A stretch of DNA of 64,000 nt from Rhizobacter sp. OV335. Its GTDB lineage: Bacteria > Pseudomonadota > Gammaproteobacteria > Burkholderiales > Burkholderiaceae_C. The position numbers and the translations under genes were made by a program. The notes beneath the pieces are model-generated. The model searched no databases. It had not been told where the DNA came from and saw nothing but the letters and a program-made list of their open reading frames with translations. The DNA is taken from assembly GCF_900142965.1 (NCBI RefSeq), contig NZ_FRCQ01000022.1, forward strand, positions 1 through 64,000, in the 5' to 3' direction. Positions 10,141 through 17,572 of the stretch are shown one piece after another; the first letter of the stretch is position 1, and each line of letters opens with the position of its first letter.

Positions 10141-11184
10141 TCACGCGCCCAGCGACGTGACCGTGACACGCCAGTGCCCCTCGACACCGTCGGTCACGAT
10201 GCGCAGCGGCAAGAAGCGCTCGATCACCGCGAAGTTGGTCCGCGCGTGTTCCGTCAACTCGGTGCAGCTGAAGCTCGCCGGCCGGCCGCTGCGCCACACC
10301 GCGAGCGCGAGCGGCAGCACCCACTGGTCGGCCAAGTGCGGGCCGAGCGCGCCGGTGCCGGCCTGGTAGGCGCGCAGCTCCGCGGCGAGCGACAGCGCGA
10401 CCTCTTCGGCGCTGCGGCCGCGCTCACCGAAGCTGATCGCCAGCTCGGTCACGTGCTCGTGGGCCAGCGTCGCCATCAGCGCATTGCCAGGACCCTCGTT
10501 CTGGCGCAACACCGGCACCTGCAACGCATCGTCGGGCCAGCCGAGCTCGCGCTGCAGGATGGCGAGTTCGCGTGACGCGACGCTGCGCGGCACCGCCGCG
10601 GCCAGCGCCTCCGCATGGGCCGCGAGCAGGGCACCGCGCTCCACCAGGTCGTACGGTTGCAGCCCGCCGACGGCCGGCAGGATCTCGGCGACGAACTCGC
10701 CGCCGCCTGCCGGAAAGAAGCCGTGGCGGCGCAACTGCAGGCGGCTGCCCGCGCCCAGGCGCTGCAACAGCGGTGCGTAGCAACGCTCGATGAAATGGAA
10801 CGGCGGCGCCATCGGGTTGTGCGTGCCGCCAGCGAGCGTCAGCCGGCTCGTTCCATTGGCCAACATCAGCGCCGGCCACACGGTCTGCAGCACGAGCGTC
10901 GCGCTGCCGGCCGTGCCGACGCTGAAGACATGGTCGCCGGCGCACACCGTGCCGGGTTCGAAGACCAGCGACATCGAGCCGGCCTCTGCACCCTGCACCC
11001 GCGCCCCACTGACAGCCTGCGCCGCCTGCACGCAGGCCAGGTGCTGGCGCATCAGGCCCGGCTTGGGCCGGCGCGCGCGGATGTCGTGCAGCGCGACGCT
11101 TTGGCCGGTGCACATCGCGAGCGCCAACGCGCTGCGCAGGATCTGGCCGCCACCCTCCCCGGTGGCGCCGTCGAGTTCGATCAT
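10141..11184 (-). CDS. rtcA: RNA 3'-terminal phosphate cyclase
   Basis: This 347-residue enzyme converts an RNA 3'-phosphate to a 2',3'-cyclic phosphate via an adenylylated enzyme. GEGGGQILRSALAL (9-22) and HGFFPAGGGE (154-163) are family signatures. H313 in TEHARTNFAV corresponds to the nucleophilic histidine that accepts AMP. Its length matches E. coli RtcA (about 340). It is the last gene of the repair operon. Its ATG overlaps the stop of the HEAT protein gene (ATGA), so the two are translationally coupled. Expression is expected from the sigma-54 promoter at about 15713. Confidence 0.95.
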   Translation of the reverse strand: MIELDGATGEGGGQILRSALALAMCTGQSVALHDIRARRPKPGLMRQHLACVQAAQAVSGARVQGAEAGSMSLVFEPGTVCAGDHVFSVGTAGSATLVLQTVWPALMLANGTSRLTLAGGTHNPMAPPFHFIERCYAPLLQRLGAGSRLQLRRHGFFPAGGGEFVAEILPAVGGLQPYDLVERGALLAAHAEALAAAVPRSVASRELAILQRELGWPDDALQVPVLRQNEGPGNALMATLAHEHVTELAISFGERGRSAEEVALSLAAELRAYQAGTGALGPHLADQWVLPLALAVWRSGRPASFSCTELTEHARTNFAVIERFLPLRIVTDGVEGHWRVTVTSLGA

Positions 11185-12569
11185 CGTGATTCCTTGTTGT
11201 TGTCTTGTTCCATCGTGCGATCAAGCGGGATCCCGAAGGACCCGAGCTGGAACCGCACTGCCGCTCGCAGCGGCTCGGCAATGCCGGCCTGCGCGTCGCG
11301 CCAGGCCGCCGACACGCTGCCCCGCTGCGCGGGCGTGGGCGCAACGAAACAGCGGTTCATGTCGGCGAGCCAGGCCCGAAGGCCCTCGGACGCAAGCTGC
11401 CACGTCGTCTCCGCCAGCGTGCCGCCGGCCAGCGTGGTCAGCAGGAACCACCCACGGTCCCACGGCGACGCGCGGACCATCAGCTGCAACGCGACGCGCA
11501 TCGCTTGCGGCGTCCCGAGTGCCTCGACCAGCTGCCGCGCCCGCTCGGCCGATGGCGCCGGCGCGCCACGAACGACCGCCTTGACCGCCAGCCGCTGCAC
11601 GTGCGGCGATGCGTCGAGCAGCGTGCGTTCGATCAGCATCGGCAGGTCAGCACCCGGCTCGGCCATCCATCCTTCGTAGGCCGCGACCCGCAACGCCACG
11701 GCACTCGCACCGCTCATCGCCCGGCACAACGCCGGGTGACCAGGGTGCTGCCGTGCACGCAGCAGCCGCAGCATCACGGCGCGCAGGCGGGCAGACAGCG
11801 ACGCATCCGGCACACCGGCCAACGCACGTTGATCGACCTCGGCACGCAGCGCAGGCGATGCCGCGGCCACGGCCAACCCTCGCACGGCTGCGCTGCGGTC
11901 GAAGCACAGCGCCTGCAGCAGCGCCGGCTCGACGCCGTCACCGCTCGTCGACAACCCCCGTAGCCCCGCCACACGCACCTCGGCGAACTTGCCACGGCAG
12001 GCCTCGCGCAGCAGCTGCGAACGCAGCGGCCCCACCGGCAGCGCCGCGGCACGCTGCACCGCGGTGCGTGCGACCAGCACATCGTTCGACCGCAGGCCAC
12101 CCGCCAGCACGGCAAGGCCCGAGGCGTCGTCGCGGCAAGCCTTCGCGCTCAGCAGAAACAGAAAGCGCGCAGCCTCGCGGTCGGACGCCGGCAGACCGAC
12201 GCCCACGCGCGCGAGATGCCCCGGCGTCGACAGGAAGTCCTCGATCGCCTGCAGCAGTTCGCGGTGGTCGACGCGGCGCGCCTGGCGCAGCCGCAGCAGC
12301 GCCGGCAATGCCTGCCGCCAGCCGTCGAGGCGGCGCTCGTTCAGCCACGCCAGCACGGCCTGCGCCGCGGCATGCCGCACCGGCGCGACCCAATCGTTGG
12401 CCCGCACCAGCAGCATGCGCAGCGCGCGCGGGTCATCGCTGGCCGCCAGCGCCGCGACCGCGGCCTGCCGCTCGTAGCCGCTCGGCGACGCGGCCGCGGC
12501 CAGCCAGGCCTCGACGCCGTTCGCGCTCTCGGCAGGCTTGCCGAGCCATCGGCTCAACCAGGTGTTCAT
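11181..12569 (-). CDS. HEAT-repeat protein inside the rtc operon
   Basis: This 462-residue protein has many helical, alanine- and leucine-rich repeats of the HEAT type (for example YERQAAVAALAASDDPRALR and VRHAAAQAVLAWLNERR). It has no signal peptide, membrane segment or catalytic motif that I can see. The start at 12569 has an excellent ribosome binding site (GGAGGAGG region). It lies 11 bp after rtcB and overlaps rtcA by 4 bp, so it must be made with the ligase and cyclase. HEAT arrays usually form protein or nucleic-acid scaffolds, so a platform for RtcB/RtcA or a tRNA-binding role is a reasonable inference. The protein is not part of the classical E. coli rtcBA operon. Confidence 0.8.
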   Translation of the reverse strand: MNTWLSRWLGKPAESANGVEAWLAAAASPSGYERQAAVAALAASDDPRALRMLLVRANDWVAPVRHAAAQAVLAWLNERRLDGWRQALPALLRLRQARRVDHRELLQAIEDFLSTPGHLARVGVGLPASDREAARFLFLLSAKACRDDASGLAVLAGGLRSNDVLVARTAVQRAAALPVGPLRSQLLREACRGKFAEVRVAGLRGLSTSGDGVEPALLQALCFDRSAAVRGLAVAAASPALRAEVDQRALAGVPDASLSARLRAVMLRLLRARQHPGHPALCRAMSGASAVALRVAAYEGWMAEPGADLPMLIERTLLDASPHVQRLAVKAVVRGAPAPSAERARQLVEALGTPQAMRVALQLMVRASPWDRGWFLLTTLAGGTLAETTWQLASEGLRAWLADMNRCFVAPTPAQRGSVSAAWRDAQAGIAEPLRAAVRFQLGSFGIPLDRTMEQDNNKESR

Positions 12570-12580
12570 GCTCCTCCTCC

Positions 12581-13804
12581 CTATCCTTTCACGCACACCA
12601 CCTGCTTCAGCGTGTGCACGACCTCCACGAGGTCCTTCTGTGCTGCCATCACCGCGTCGATGTCCTTGTAGGCCATCGGGATCTCGTCGATGACGTCCGC
12701 ATCCTTGCGGCACTCGACGCCCTCGGTCGCCTTCACCTGGTCGGCCACGCTGAACAGCTTCTTCGCCTTCGTGCGGCTCATCACGCGGCCGGCGCCGTGG
12801 CTGCAGCTGTCGAAGCTCTCCGGGTTGCCGAGGCCGCGCACGATGAAGCTGCGCGCACCCATGCTGCCCGGAATGATCCCCATCTGGCCGCGCTTCGCGC
12901 TGACCGCCCCCTTGCGGGTGACGAACACGTCTTCACCGAAGTGGCGTTCCTGCTGCACGTAGTTGTGGTGGCAGTTGACGGCCTCGACGTGCGTCTCGAA
13001 CGGCTTCGCGATCACCTGGCGCACGGTGGCGATCAGGTTGGTCATCATCACCTCGCGGTTGCGCGCCGCGAACTTCTGCGCCCAGCCGACACCGCGCACG
13101 TAGTCGCCGAAATACTGCGCGCCTTCCTCGAAGTACGCCAGGTCCTGGTCGGGCAGGTTGCGCTGCTGCGCTTCGGCATCCTTCTTCGCCAGTTCGATGA
13201 AGTGGGTGCCGATCGCGTTGCCGACACCGCGCGAGCCGGAGTGCAGCATGAACCAGACGGCGCCCTCCTCATCGAGGCAGACCTCGATGAAGTGGTTGCC
13301 GCCGCCCAGCGTCCCCAGGTGCTTGCGGTTGTTGGTGTTCTTCAGGCGCGGGTGCAGCTCGCACAAGGCATCGAACTCGTCGACGAGCGTCGCCCACACC
13401 TGGTCGACGGTCTCCGGCGGGTTCTCCCAGCTGCCCTGGTCGCGGCCGCGGTGGCGCGGCGTCGAGCCGTGCGGCACCGAGCGCTCGATGGCCGCGCGCA
13501 GCGGGCCCAGGTTGTCCGGCAGGTCTTCGGCGCGCAACGTGGTCTTGCAGGCCATCATTCCGCAGCCGATGTCGACGCCGACCGCGGCCGGGATGATCGC
13601 GCGCAGCGTCGGGATCACCGAGCCGACGGTCGCGCCGATGCCCAGGTGCACGTCGGGCATCGCCGCGATGTGCTTGAAGACGACCGGCAGGCGGGCCGCG
13701 TTCGCGAGCTGCTGCTTCGCCTCGGCTTCGACCGGCACGCCGCGGGTCCACATCTTGACGGGCACGCCGCCCTCGATGGTTTCGGTGTCGTAGTTCGTGT
13801 TCAT
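12581..13804 (-). CDS. rtcB: RNA-splicing ligase RtcB
   Basis: This 407-residue, GTP- and Mn-dependent ligase joins 2',3'-cyclic phosphate (or 3'-phosphate) to 5'-OH RNA ends, as in tRNA or rRNA repair. The metal ligand motif DIGCGM (78-83), LGGGNHFIE (166-174), the NCHHNY segment (278-282) and the guanylylated histidine H336 in SHGAGR are all intact. Its length matches E. coli RtcB (408). It lies immediately downstream of the YrlA-type RNA (about 35 nt from its closing stem) and upstream of the HEAT protein gene. Confidence 0.97.
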   Translation of the reverse strand: MNTNYDTETIEGGVPVKMWTRGVPVEAEAKQQLANAARLPVVFKHIAAMPDVHLGIGATVGSVIPTLRAIIPAAVGVDIGCGMMACKTTLRAEDLPDNLGPLRAAIERSVPHGSTPRHRGRDQGSWENPPETVDQVWATLVDEFDALCELHPRLKNTNNRKHLGTLGGGNHFIEVCLDEEGAVWFMLHSGSRGVGNAIGTHFIELAKKDAEAQQRNLPDQDLAYFEEGAQYFGDYVRGVGWAQKFAARNREVMMTNLIATVRQVIAKPFETHVEAVNCHHNYVQQERHFGEDVFVTRKGAVSAKRGQMGIIPGSMGARSFIVRGLGNPESFDSCSHGAGRVMSRTKAKKLFSVADQVKATEGVECRKDADVIDEIPMAYKDIDAVMAAQKDLVEVVHTLKQVVCVKG

Positions 13805-13839
13805 GTTCTTCTCGCTTGCTGATTCACAGATTCAAAAGA

Positions 13840-13987
13840 TGATGTCGTGCACCGACCAGGATCGGTGAAACGTTTCGCGCTCTATCCCCTGAGCTACGGT
13901 CCCCCTGATTCGGGACCGGCGGGACTCGAACCCGCGACCTCGAGCACCCAAAGCTGTAGTTCCACCCGCATTCGATGCACGACATCA
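13840..13987 (-). ncRNA. yrlA: YrlA-type bacterial Y RNA with permuted tRNA-like domain
   Basis: A non-coding RNA about 148 nt long is read leftwards between rsr and rtcB. Its ends form a 16-bp stem (13972-13987 with 13840-13855, one G-U pair), the expected Ro-binding stem. Inside lies a circularly permuted tRNA mimic. In transcript order there is a T arm (13935-13919, 5-bp stem, loop TTCGAGT), then the acceptor 3' strand CGGTCCC (13918-13912), an 8-nt cap GAATCAGG and the acceptor 5' strand GGGACCG (13903-13897). U8-A9 equivalents follow, then a D arm (GCTC-loop AGGGGATA-GAGC, 13894-13879). Bacterial Y RNAs that bind Rsr and carry such tRNA-like modules are known next to rsr and rtcBA. The segment CGAATGC-GGGTGG-ACTACA is shared with the upstream RNA. 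Ends are stem limits, not mapped termini. Confidence 0.88.
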
Positions 13988-14003
13988 AAACCTCAAGACG
14001 GAA

Positions 14004-14080
14004 GCCCCCGCGTGGCGACAAACAATTGGGGAGACGGAACAATTTTGGATGTAGTCCCACCCGGCATTCGCCACGCGACA
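14004..14080 (-). ncRNA. Second, shorter Y RNA (YrlB-like)
   Basis: Directly after the rsr stop codon, a second structured RNA is closed by a perfect 10-bp stem (14068-14077 with 14009-14018; CGCGTGGCGA/TCGCCACGCG). Its 5' strand continues with CGAATGCC-GGGTGG-ACTACA, nearly identical to the same region of the YrlA-type RNA. This shows the two are paralogues that arose by duplication. A second stem, CAAA..ATTG with CAATTG..TTTG, closes a terminal loop (about 14050-14019). There is no tRNA-like module here. I infer a Ro60-bound Y RNA equivalent to Salmonella YrlB. Confidence 0.72.
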
Positions 14081-14093
14081 GCTTTCAATCACT

Positions 14094-15668
14094 TCATTGC
14101 ATTTCCAGTGGCAGCTTGTCGATCTCGCCGACCCAGTGCCCGGCTCCCATCCGGCCCTCGGCAAACATCGCCAGCATCGAGAACACCGCATCGGAGAATC
14201 CTCCGACGTTCATGATGTCCTCACGCTCCGCCGCCTGCGTCGTCGCATGCGGCTGGATGTCGATGCACACCAGGCGGGCCTGCGGATTGCGGTGCTTCAA
14301 CAGCTCCCACTCGCGCAGGGTCTGCGTTGCACCGCCTCGCCGCGCATCCACCCAGGACTCGTTGTCCGATACCAGCACCACCAAGTCCACCTTCGCGCCT
14401 TCGGCATTCAACAGCGCCAGCGGTGCGCTGCAGTTCGTGCCGCCACCCCCGATGCGGGCCAGGGCCCGCGCATTGGTCATCACCGAATCACGGCCGTTCA
14501 GCGCGAGCTTCACGACCTTCTGCTCGAACGGCAACACGCGCGCCGTCGGCGTCTTGCGCAGGATCGCCGCCGACACCAGGGCTGCCACATCGATGCAACG
14601 CACCGTGCTGGTCGCCGAACCGCGATGGCCCGTCACGGCCGAGCTCATCGAGCCCGACACGTCGGGGCACACCACGACGCGGCCTTGGAGACGCGGCACG
14701 TTGACCAATGCGGCCTCCATCGCATCCTGCAGGGCCTCTCGAACCACCGCCGGCACACCATCGCCGGTCGCCATGAAGGCCGACATCAGCTGGTACGGCA
14801 TCACCCGCGCCTGGGCCACGGCCTTCGGATCGCGCAGCTTCGCGGCAACCACGTCGGCCATGCCGTCCAGCGCGAACACGCCATGCCGGGCAAAGGTGTT
14901 CAGGTTCTGACGCACCATCTGCCATGAACCGGTTCGAGCCACTTCCGCCCATTGCCGAGCGCTCAGCGGCACCGCCGTCAGCATCTGGAACGGCACGTCG
15001 GGCAGCTCGGCCACCTCGCCGCGGGCCACGGCCCGCTTGAAGCGCTCGAAGGCTTGCGTCAACGGCGGCAGTGCCGCTTCGTCGACCGGCTTGCCGATCA
15101 GCCATGCGAACCACGCAGCGCGCCAGGCCTCCGCAGGCTTCGGGTGAACCATCTTCACCACATCGGCCAACGAAGGCGTGTTGCCCACCGAGGCGTTCAA
15201 CAGCTGCTTCTCGCTGGCATTCAGCAACCAGTCCTGCACCAGCTTCTTCGGGCGCGTTCCCAGTGACTTGCGACCGACAGCGCCGCTTCGGACGATCTGC
15301 ACGAAGTTGCGCAGCATCTTGCCGTTGTCGACCACGCGGCCGAACACCTGGGCCAGCAACGCCACGTCGCGAGCGGCCAGCGACGCCGCCAGCAAGGCCG
15401 GCATGTCCTTCATGTGACCTGTCTGACGGGCATGGACGGCGGTCTTCGCAACGAACGGCGCGTCGACCTGCGCGGCCAGCGTCATCGCGCGCTCCAGTTG
15501 CTCCTCGGCGCCGGCATAAAAGGTCTGGCCCAGACAACCGGTGGCAGCCAGCTGCGCCAGTTGGTGGCGCGGGCTCAGTGCGTACGCGCCGGCCTGGTGA
15601 TGGTTGGTCGCATCGGCCGCAGGCGGCAACTTGCCCTTGAGCGTCTGGAACAGTTCGGTGTTGACCAT
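14094..15668 (-). CDS. rsr: Rsr, bacterial Ro60 (TROVE domain) protein
   Basis: This 524-residue TROVE-domain RNA-binding protein is the orthologue of animal Ro60. The HEAT-like TROVE ring (about 15-325) binds Y RNA and the ends of misfolded RNAs. The C-terminal von Willebrand A domain has the metal-ion motif DVSGS at 336-340 and later acidic ligands (VSDNESW). In other bacteria Rsr with Y RNA works with PNPase or in RNA repair. The start at 15668 is chosen because it has GAGGAG about 8 nt upstream. An earlier in-frame ATG (15698) would lie at or before the sigma-54 transcription start. First gene of the operon; followed by two Y RNAs and rtcB. Confidence 0.93.
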   Translation of the reverse strand: MVNTELFQTLKGKLPPAADATNHHQAGAYALSPRHQLAQLAATGCLGQTFYAGAEEQLERAMTLAAQVDAPFVAKTAVHARQTGHMKDMPALLAASLAARDVALLAQVFGRVVDNGKMLRNFVQIVRSGAVGRKSLGTRPKKLVQDWLLNASEKQLLNASVGNTPSLADVVKMVHPKPAEAWRAAWFAWLIGKPVDEAALPPLTQAFERFKRAVARGEVAELPDVPFQMLTAVPLSARQWAEVARTGSWQMVRQNLNTFARHGVFALDGMADVVAAKLRDPKAVAQARVMPYQLMSAFMATGDGVPAVVREALQDAMEAALVNVPRLQGRVVVCPDVSGSMSSAVTGHRGSATSTVRCIDVAALVSAAILRKTPTARVLPFEQKVVKLALNGRDSVMTNARALARIGGGGTNCSAPLALLNAEGAKVDLVVLVSDNESWVDARRGGATQTLREWELLKHRNPQARLVCIDIQPHATTQAAEREDIMNVGGFSDAVFSMLAMFAEGRMGAGHWVGEIDKLPLEMQ

Positions 15669-15704
15669 GTGGGTTCTCCTCGCATTCAACTTGTGCAAGT
15701 CTTA

Positions 15705-15721
15705 TTGCAACGGATGTGCCA
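15705..15721 (-). promoter_or_regulatory. Sigma-54 promoter of the RNA-repair operon
   Basis: Read leftwards, TGGCAC (15721-15716), five bases, then TTGCAA (15710-15705) is an essentially perfect -24/-12 element with the invariant GG and GC. Transcription should start near 15696, giving a leader of about 28 nt before the rsr ATG at 15668. The divergent gene encodes the matching sigma-54 activator RtcR. Confidence 0.92.
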
Positions 15722-15864: not shown

Positions 15865-17466
15865 ATGTCCAAGCAAACCGTCGTCATCGGCTTCCTCGGC
15901 ACCCAGCTCGACGCCGGCCAGGGCGCCGGCCGTTGGGAGAAGTGGCGCCCCACCGTCTCGCTGGTGCAGCAGCCCGACGTCGTCGTCCACCGCATCGAGC
16001 TGATCCACACGCCACGCCACCTGGGCCTCGCGCAGCAACTGCAGCGCGACATCGCCTCGGTCTCGCCCGAGACGCTGGTCAACCTGCTCCCGATGGACGT
16101 GGCCGACCCGTGGGATTTCGGCGAGATGTACGGCGCGCTCTACGACTGGGTCCGCGCCTACCCGTTCGACACCGAGCGCGAGCAGTACCGCGCCCACATC
16201 ACCACCGGCACGCACGTCGCGCAGATCTGCATGTTCCTGATGGTCGAGTCGCGCTTCATTCCCGGCGTGCTGCTGCAGACCGCACCGCCGAAGAAGCAGA
16301 CGCACGAGAACCCCGGCAGCCTGACGCTGATCGACCTCGACCTGTCGCGCTACGACGTGCTCGCCAAGCGCTTCCACCAGGCGCAGCAGGACGCGGTCGA
16401 GTTCCTGAAGGACGGCATCGCGACGCGCAACAAGGCCTTCAACGCGCTGATCGACGAGATCGAGCGCGTGGCCGTGCGCTCTCGCGCGCCGATCCTGCTG
16501 ACCGGCCCGACCGGCGCCGGCAAGTCGCACCTCGCGCGCCGCATGTTCGAGCTGAAGAAGTCGCGCCACCAGGTCAGCGGCGAGTTCGTCGAGGTCAACT
16601 GCGCGACGCTGCACGGCGACGGCGCGGCCTCGACGCTGTTCGGCCACCGCAAGGGCGCGTTCACCGGCGCGGCCGCCGACCGCGCCGGCCTGCTGCGCAG
16701 CGCGCACGGTGGCGTGCTGTTCCTGGACGAGATCGGGGAGCTGGGCCTGGACGAGCAGGCGATGCTGCTGAAGGCGGTGGAGGAGAAGCGCTTCTACCCG
16801 ATGGGCAGCGACCGCGAGGTCACGAGCGACTTCCAGCTGATGGTCGGCACGAACCGCGACCTGCGCATCGACGTGGCCGAGGGCCGCTTCCGCGAAGACC
16901 TGTACGCCCGCATCAACCTGTGGAGCTACCTGCTGCCGGGCCTCGCGCAGCGGCCGGAAGACATCGAGCCGAACGTCGAGCACCTGCTGGCGCGCGTGGC
17001 CGCCGAAAACGGCCGGGCGGTGCGCTTCAACGCCGAGGCCCGCTTGCAGTACCTGCGCTTTGCGCAGTCGTCCGAGGCGCTGTGGCGCGGCAACTTCCGC
17101 GACCTGTCGGCCAGCATCACGCGGCTGGCGACGCTGGCCGATGGCGGGCGCATCTCATCGGCGCTGGTCGATGCCGAGCTGCAGCGGCTGCGCTGGCTGT
17201 GGCAGCACCACGCGAGCGATGCGCCGGCGAGCGACGCCGTCGACCTCGAGGCCTTGCTGGGCGACGCCGCATCAGCACTCGACCTGTTCGACCGGCTGCA
17301 GCTGCAGGCCGTCGTGCAGCTGTGCCGCCGCTCGCGCACGCTGTCGGAGGCGGGGCGCCAGCTCTTCGATGTCTCGCGCCAGCAGCGCAGCGTCGTCAAC
17401 GACGCCGACCGGCTGCGCAAGTACCTTGCGAAGCACGGTCTGAGTTGGGAACGCGTGACAGCCTGA
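15865..17466 (+). CDS. rtcR: RtcR, sigma-54-dependent activator of the rtc operon
   Basis: This 533-residue enhancer-binding protein has an N-terminal RtcR/CARF-like sensor domain (about 1-180), thought to bind an RNA or nucleotide ligand. The AAA+ domain has Walker A GPTGAGKS (214-221), the sigma-54 contact loop GAFTGA (264-269) and Walker B LFLDEIGEL (285-293). A C-terminal helical DNA-binding segment follows. Its length equals E. coli RtcR (532). It is divergent from rsr with a 196-bp control region holding the -24/-12 promoter. The 3' end runs straight into a tRNA-like inverted-repeat structure. It activates the repair operon when RNA damage products accumulate; the exact ligand is not visible here. 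Confidence 0.96.
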   Translation: MSKQTVVIGFLGTQLDAGQGAGRWEKWRPTVSLVQQPDVVVHRIELIHTPRHLGLAQQLQRDIASVSPETLVNLLPMDVADPWDFGEMYGALYDWVRAYPFDTEREQYRAHITTGTHVAQICMFLMVESRFIPGVLLQTAPPKKQTHENPGSLTLIDLDLSRYDVLAKRFHQAQQDAVEFLKDGIATRNKAFNALIDEIERVAVRSRAPILLTGPTGAGKSHLARRMFELKKSRHQVSGEFVEVNCATLHGDGAASTLFGHRKGAFTGAAADRAGLLRSAHGGVLFLDEIGELGLDEQAMLLKAVEEKRFYPMGSDREVTSDFQLMVGTNRDLRIDVAEGRFREDLYARINLWSYLLPGLAQRPEDIEPNVEHLLARVAAENGRAVRFNAEARLQYLRFAQSSEALWRGNFRDLSASITRLATLADGGRISSALVDAELQRLRWLWQHHASDAPASDAVDLEALLGDAASALDLFDRLQLQAVVQLCRRSRTLSEAGRQLFDVSRQQRSVVNDADRLRKYLAKHGLSWERVTA

Positions 17467-17572
17467 TGCCGCGGCGGGGGAGTCGAACCCCCTGGCCCTG
17501 GCCGCGCGGCATCGCGCCGCGCGGTATGTCGTTCAGGGCCGGGGACCGTGGCATCCACTGCACTTCGGCTGT
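17458..17572 (-). ncRNA. tRNA-like three-way fold abutting rtcR
   Basis: The minus-strand sequence folds into a 91-nt, tRNA-sized structure. The outer stem pairs 17546-17555 with 17465-17474 (one A-C mismatch). A central arm has 7 bp (17534-17540 with 17494-17500) topped by a 9-bp hairpin (17516-17524 with 17502-17510). A perfect T arm follows (GGGGG, loop TTCGACT, CCCCC; 17492-17476). ACAGCC/GGCTGT extends the base into the last rtcR codons. There is no D arm and no clean 7-bp acceptor with CCA, so it is not a normal tRNA. The T-loop sequence favours the minus strand. Expression and function are unknown; no promoter was found. Confidence 0.5.

Follow-up and report, generated by a model that had tools for sequence, protein, structure and literature searches.

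The YrlA RNA described here has its tRNA parts in a permuted order, as do permuted tmRNA and tRNA genes of the circularly permuted kind, but differs from them in that a loop links its two acceptor strands, which end in no CCA. In the 2018 YrlA structure the equivalent of the anticodon stem is reportedly kinked and without a loop. In Salmonella, the genes lie in the order rsr-yrlB-yrlA-rtcB-rtcA (PMC7790460, PMC9879122, in the sections used here), and tRNA halves ending in a 2′,3′-cyclic phosphate bind RtcR, which turns the operon on (PMC7790460). The same portions of that paper describe Salmonella YrlA as uncut by the nuclease, with no YrlA fragments detected, and suggest that its tRNA domain might competitively inhibit that nuclease; the introduction describes a Deinococcus radiodurans Y RNA that tethers Rsr to PNPase. 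According to the part of a review used here (PMC8394870), YrlA is modified by DusA and TruB. In literature on anticodon loops in Y RNAs and on Y RNAs beside repair genes, covered mostly through titles and the opening lines of abstracts, neither the anticodon-like arm nor the arrays presented below could be recognised.

The window, a 64,000-nucleotide stretch of the Rhizobacter sp. OV335 genome, holds on its minus strand rsr, a YrlB-type RNA, YrlA, rtcB, a gene for a HEAT-like protein and rtcA, with rtcR divergent. As far as the Salmonella rsr-yrlBA-rtcBA operon is described in the text drawn on here, the two are alike in gene order, in the divergent rtcR and in a sigma-54-type site upstream of rsr, and differ in that the window has an additional HEAT-like gene separating rtcB from rtcA, a place taken in the operon of one relative (L054) by RlaP of the RNA-repair polymerase family.

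Gene context and the two Y RNAs

The proteins of the operon can be assigned firmly from their sequences, RtcB, RTC and RtcR by their domain matches and Rsr by its Ro60-type vWA domain and a match to the solved Rsr structure 2nvo (E 1.2e-20). Rsr scored 21.3 bits for TROVE, under the Pfam cut-off of 23, and 79.2 bits for NCBIfam Rsr, under the cut-off of 900, and the ATG at 15668 is its likelier start. The HEAT-like protein gave no match in an NCBIfam search and has relatives of 31-39% identity in L060, L063, L079 and L083; a search for RlaP in the window's genome found none (0/1). Judged by the consensus that we take to be that of sigma-54, the promoter-like site is the sole match with at most one mismatch in the window, and its position outweighs the match itself because about one such match per window is expected by chance (1.31). 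Measured from the rsr match to the rtcB match, the gap is 293 bp here and 201-1583 bp in relatives with both genes.

The original prediction placed two tandem Y RNAs between rsr and rtcB on the minus strand, and its identification was right: the Rfam YrlA match, a leave-one-out model, compensatory changes and the gene context all agree that the two are almost certainly Y RNAs, as far as sequence comparison can tell. The upstream RNA was not recognised there as YrlB, and the anticodon-like hairpin went unnoticed. A covariance-model search returned YrlA above its cut-off (and Rfam YrlB below), and paired positions change in a compensatory manner among relatives in both RNAs, so neither result spoke against the identification. 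YrlA passes Rfam RF02553 narrowly: the model's gathering score is 69, and the RNA reaches 69.3 bits (E 8e-14 for the window). The shared 5′ segment that had been pointed out is present, as CGAATGC-GGGTGG-AACTACA in YrlA and CGAATGC-CGGGTGG-GACTACA upstream. For the closing stems, predicted at 16 and 10 bp, the first length holds for YrlA when the outer pairs are counted; in the consensus of the upstream RNA, an 11-bp inner stem is accompanied by an outer one of 4 bp.

The upstream RNA resembles Rfam YrlB (RF02565; Salmonella) in its place after rsr, its closing stem, the GAAUGC loop and a second stem. It scored 26.5 bits against that model (E 0.0025, in a 341-base stretch), below the gathering score of 97, and 79.4 bits (E 1.1e-15) against our model R3, built from 28 related RNAs without the window sequence, for which the second-best match in the window reached only 15.3 bits. 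Compensatory change was found in 18 of 23 consensus pairs in alignment A1 (29 sequences including the window's, from 40 class B units; 8 mis-sorted units, two near-duplicates and L050 were left out). By these matches it is a member of a wider YrlB-type class as modelled here, too divergent for the Rfam cut-off. Both Y RNAs folded more stably than most of their shuffles (z-scores -3.57 and -3.60), of which 0 and 2 of 200 did equally well.

Table 1 Features of the RNA repair operon and its Y RNAs, in window coordinates
Feature	Position	Strand	Observation
YrlA Y RNA, whole folded unit	about 13842-13985	-	Rfam RF02553 match 13846-13978
YrlA closing stem P1, 5′ strand, pairing 13842-13855	13972-13985	-	10/14 pairs changed on both sides
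YrlA stem P2, 5′ strand, pairing 13864-13870	13960-13966	-	99.1% of cells paired
YrlA T-arm GCGGG-UUCGAGU-CCCGC	13919-13935	-	100% of cells paired
YrlA acceptor stem, 7 bp, CGGUCCC/GGGACCG	13897-13918	-	4/7 pairs with double change; 96.6% of cells paired
YrlA D-arm GCUC/GAGC	13879-13894	-	four pairs invariant, 32/32 sequences
tRNA positions 42-43, pairing 27-28 (13876-13877)	13941-13942	-	paired in 32/32 sequences
Anticodon-like hairpin AGC-UUUGGGU-GCU, tRNA positions 29-41	13943-13955	-	13-nt insert relative to Rfam consensus
YrlB-type Y RNA: closing stem, CGAATGC internal loop, second stem GGG.GGGAC/GTCTCCCC	14003-14083	-	
rsr (Ro60 homologue)	14094-15698	-	Pfam vWA_Ro60 65.7 bits
rtcB RNA ligase	12581-13804	-	Pfam RtcB 427.5 bits
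HEAT-repeat-like protein gene, between rtcB and rtcA	11181-12569	-	HEAT_2 E 3.6e-4, under Pfam cut-off
rtcA RNA cyclase	10141-11184	-	Pfam RTC 238.4 bits
rtcR, sigma-54 activator, divergent	15865-17466	+	NCBIfam RNA_repair_RtcR 820.5 bits, cut-off 650
Sigma-54 promoter-like site TGGCAC-N5-TTGCA, upstream of rsr	15706-15721	-	exact consensus match

The permuted tRNA domain and its anticodon-like arm

The YrlA of the window shares with RF02553 and with Salmonella Typhimurium YrlA (PDB 6CU1) the Y stems, CGAAUGC, a permuted T-arm, capped acceptor and D-arm, and the location between rsr and rtcB beside the Rsr (Ro60) gene, features by which it belongs to the class. The permuted T-arm, acceptor and D-arm of YrlA type described in the original prediction are thus borne out by the sequence and the Rfam score, down to the 8-nt acceptor cap (GAAUCAGG, 13904-13911). 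Joined by this loop, the acceptor strands leave no free CCA end of the kind found in a functional tRNA, and the domain should for that reason not be charged. The tmRNA_permuted model of Rfam scored 15.5 bits on this stretch against a cut-off of 47.

Pairing was assessed in alignment A4, which holds 32 native sequences, the window's included, from 45 class D units (8 class E units and 5 whose loops diverge or whose caps are long were left out); L078, identical in sequence to the window, is represented by the window's row in both A1 and A4. In the full structure 96.4% of cells are paired, compared with 37-46% in slid versions, and 20 of 42 pairs are changed on both sides against 8.9 in shuffles. 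The D-arm is conserved in these sequences, yet without covariation, and pair 27-43 shows a compensatory change in 3 of the 32.

What sets the RNA of the window and of most relatives examined apart from Rfam YrlA is a 13-nt hairpin that would complete an anticodon arm at positions that the Rfam consensus lacks. In the Rfam alignment these 13 extra bases of the window YrlA (AGCUUUGGGUGCU) allow a hairpin of 3 bp closed by a 7-nt loop, in which UGG (13948-13950) is the anticodon-like triplet. Read in tRNA order, the RNA gives acceptor GGGACCG, U8 A9, D-stem GCUC/GAGC, position 26 and C27 G28, then, past the Y stems, A29 G30 C31, loop 32-38 UUUGGGU and 39-43 GCUCG, and finally the variable region AGGUC, the T-arm and acceptor CGGUCCC. 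Un-permuted in this manner, its best fold is a cloverleaf (-35.1 kcal/mol) with a complete anticodon arm, that is, a 5-bp stem, a 7-nt loop and U33, and ARAGORN calls it tRNA-Pro UGG. Comparison of relatives supports the view that the YrlA effector domain is a whole tRNA, circularly permuted, with the Y stems interrupting the anticodon stem between 28 and 29.

When units were placed in tRNA order, ARAGORN called 40 of 46 as tRNA, one of them untyped (38 loci including the window's; 40 regions had been taken, and L086 and L087, without an operon-protein match, were unused), and 66 of 78 across the 77 named loci. Controls, which cover the 46 units and not the 78 named ones, gave no calls with the 13-nt insert deleted (0/46), one in native order (1/46), none with the two pieces joined the opposite way (0/46) and none in any of 10 full shuffles (0/46 each). 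Shuffling the 13-nt hairpin alone left 31-36 of 46 units still called, and we therefore rejected these calls as proof of the loop sequence: they show that the 13-nt arm fits its slot, not that its sequence matters.

That the sequence of the arm matters is shown by the comparison of relatives. Pair 31-39 is CG in 16, AU in 13, GC in 1 and something else in 2 of the 32 aligned sequences, the two others (L079, L083) having a hairpin shifted in the alignment. Among 88 distinct units in two surveys, 68 carry an arm of three stem pairs closed by a 7-nt loop. U33 is kept in 66 of these, Y32 in 64 and R37 in 65; in the remaining 20 the arm is absent, shorter or shifted in register, or a pair is broken. 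The entropy of the loop in the 68 units is 0.19 bits at position 33 and 1.81, 1.34 and 1.57 bits at 34, 35 and 36, where 19 kinds of triplet occur, CUU being the commonest (19/68). RNAalifold recovered the anticodon-like hairpin unprompted. At more distant loci (14 rows, 12 distinct units, since two rows repeat the same genome), such an arm, with three pairs and 7 nt in the loop, occurs in 5 of 12 units, of which 3 have U33. We regard an anticodon-arm structure in YrlA as probable on this sequence evidence, and would hold it slightly more firmly if U33 and its frame were not looser in the more distant units.

Folding of single sequences points the other way. The best fold of the window YrlA by itself (-68.4 kcal/mol, compared with -59.0 for the consensus structure, 9.4 in favour of the other fold) is without the hairpin, the anticodon pairs having a probability of about 0.02, and pair 31-39 appears in the best single-sequence folds of 11 of the 32 sequences. 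We think that the best fold predicted for the window RNA is wrong because the T-arm is also broken in it; the nearest-neighbour model ignores tRNA tertiary contacts. The support for the anticodon arm is comparative, and folding the window RNA on its own lends the hairpin no support.

YrlA loops were also compared with tRNA loops of the window genome (108 units, some genomes twice, in distinction to the 88-unit set of distinct sequences). From that genome, 46 of 50 tRNA genes were read, the 4 omitted having scores equal to included ones. Of 33 YrlA loops, 8 were identical to real tRNA loops of that genome against 4.5 expected (p 0.04, or 0.09 with a second null), a signal too weak for us to claim copying of tRNA loops from the host. 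The YrlA triplets ACA, ACU, AUU and UCA have no matching anticodon among the 46 genes, and the window loop UUUGGGU is one base apart from the tRNA-Pro UGG loop of its own genome, UUUGGGA.

Possible roles of the arm

The RNA class is a known one and the anticodon-like arm is the structural surprise; its structure is well supported by the sequence comparisons, while its function is something we infer. In the best explanation of the whole, to which we give about an even chance, RtcR controls an RNA repair operon whose YrlB and YrlA these two RNAs are, and the YrlA tRNA mimic most likely acts as nuclease bait. Rsr would hold P1, P2 and the CGAATGC loop, and the tRNA domain would project as an uncharged tRNA look-alike with its anticodon loop exposed. 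Once tRNAs were cut in the anticodon loop, RtcR would turn the operon on, as shown for Salmonella in the sections of PMC7790460 used here, and the YrlA so produced would engage whatever handles anticodon loops, in the role, most likely, of an anticodon-nuclease decoy or bait. If its own loop were cut, the surrounding stems would keep the RNA together, and it could be resealed by the RtcB of the same operon. A triplet that varies while U33 and R37 around it stay mostly fixed is in keeping with a bait for several nucleases, and the arm would offer the inhibition idea from Salmonella a concrete surface in the form of an anticodon loop open to recognition by a nuclease. Taken by itself, the decoy or bait role is tentative and falls somewhat short of an even chance: the reported non-cleavage of Salmonella YrlA counts against a bait, though the Rfam consensus is without the loop.

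The strongest rival is that these are an ordinary YrlA and YrlB, in which the tRNA domain is no more than a docking site for an effector, PNPase for example, and the hairpin is left over from the ancestral tRNA. The D. radiodurans tether, as introduced in PMC7790460, favours this reading, and so do the insert's dispensability, since it is missing in 5 of 78 named units (short, Rfam-like YrlAs with 6-7 nt from UAC to the T-stem), and the loss of U33 in 2 of the 5 distant units that keep the arm. A leftover arm should decay, however, whereas pair 31-39 covaries, and in the 68 closer units U33 and R37 are mostly kept and the triplet varies. This fixed U33 and R37 around a varying triplet is the main sequence argument against a leftover, which we consider somewhat unlikely.

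The variable triplet would also suit changing partners if the loop paired with another RNA or bound a modification enzyme, with no decoy role. The reported action of DusA and TruB on YrlA (PMC8394870, in the part used here), by which the original suggestion of tRNA enzymes acting on it was already published, also speaks for this reading, though these enzymes work in the D and T loops. An antisense loop would leave the mostly fixed U33 and R37 unexplained, and the reading is distinctly unlikely. That YrlA is a trigger and not a decoy, a cut in its loop yielding 2′,3′-cyclic-phosphate ends that feed RtcR, seems improbable, as the piece upstream of such a cut would be a Y-stem strand and not a tRNA 5′ half, and no YrlA fragments are described for Salmonella in the text of PMC7790460 used here. 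Both RNAs sit between two genes in one presumed transcript and could be elements of mRNA processing or attenuation, but with tRNA parts and the CGAATGC motif conserved, and Salmonella YrlA described as an independent RNA in the same text (PMC7790460), this is highly improbable.

Should the nuclease-bait reading extend further, many proteobacterial YrlAs would be complete permuted tRNAs with fast-changing loops, standing in arrays with classes resembling a T-arm/acceptor minihelix and tRNA-Leu and jointly forming repairable nuclease baits, a generalisation that we find rather doubtful. If many Y RNAs do carry a real anticodon loop, its triplet varying and its frame kept, tRNA mimicry would become directly testable, and Rsr and its RNAs would be tied to the adjoining tRNA repair genes. 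A loop swap could then show which nuclease, modifying or repair enzyme responds.

Arrays, further Y RNA classes and distribution

Model R2, whose source genomes partly overlap the 77 named loci, found 241 Y-like RNAs (E ≤ 0.01) in 77/77 of these loci, 1 to 6 in each, with three or more at 53. Units were sorted into classes, B being YrlB and D YrlA, by simple patterns that missed some units, for example the YrlA of L074. Class A consists of two hairpins, with a double change in 10 of 37 pairs (alignment A3, 14/14 units). Class C has a T-arm and a short capped stem but no D-arm, with a double change in 6 of 22 pairs (A2, 20/29 units; 9 with ends wrongly extended or divergent were left out). Class E, with a double change in 16 of 35 pairs, was aligned from 11 units found by one pattern (A6: L050, L052, L053, L054, L055, L061, L063, L068, L073, L074 and L076). 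By our own reading of the sequences it is tRNA-Leu-like, with D-arm halves, a long variable arm and a T-arm; it appears opened in the D-loop, a permutation point that differs from that of YrlA, and has a plain hairpin in place of the anticodon arm. ARAGORN calls tRNA-Leu in L063. At Rfam cut-offs, 12 loci gave 10 YrlA matches in 9 loci and none on class A, B, C or E units. Within the genus, the window has classes B and D, L085 only D, L088 B, C and D, and L054 A to E.

A Ro60-type vWA domain was found in 40 of 399 genomes of the family (38 above cut-off) and 23 of 398 of the phylum (14 above cut-off), and YrlA above the Rfam cut-off in 4 of 11 genus genomes and 3 of 369 class genomes, the window's included. 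Weak YrlA matches elsewhere were rejected as Y RNAs: 11 of 15 scanned loci hold at least two neighbouring tRNA genes, the T-arm of one and the D-arm of the next producing a spurious match, and a match at E ≤ 0.001, seen in 147 of 369 class genomes, was therefore not taken to mark a YrlA carrier. The other 4 of the 15 are YrlA loci without a tRNA call; the scan left out L013, L017 and L019, the last of which adjoins a YrlA. Arms with a 7-nt loop occur outside the family in Ruegeria (L215) and, among other families of the class or elsewhere in the phylum, in L091, L121, L122 and L123.

A T-arm-like minihelix (GATGCCGCG..GGGGGTTCGACTCCCCC..CGCGGCATC) lies at 17464-17530 on the minus strand, antisense and just beyond the end of rtcR, with one copy in the genome and a weak mascRNA-like score (15 bits, E 2.1). 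Besides the window, 2 of 40 loci (L068, L072) have the T-arm pattern outside the rsr-rtcB region, with no rtcR matched there. A further RNA of 228-251 nt, ending GCGGGTTCGAATCCCGTCGCGTCCACC and with an apparent G3-U70 pair, was seen at L057:5091-5341, L060:5088-5315 and L074:5171-5399; Rfam at cut-off was silent on it in L074, and the tmRNA calls of ARAGORN in L049 and L056 are perhaps the same RNA, its pattern being unmatched there. Relatives of Rsr occur in 372 of 50,697 phage records, and the one region read, from Myxococcus phage Mx1, has three CGAATG(C/T) sites on one strand that are not Y RNA-like by eye. In Neisseria (L202, L198, L214) and Cardiobacterium (L204, L205, L213), the Y-like RNAs lie upstream of the rsr match and not after it.
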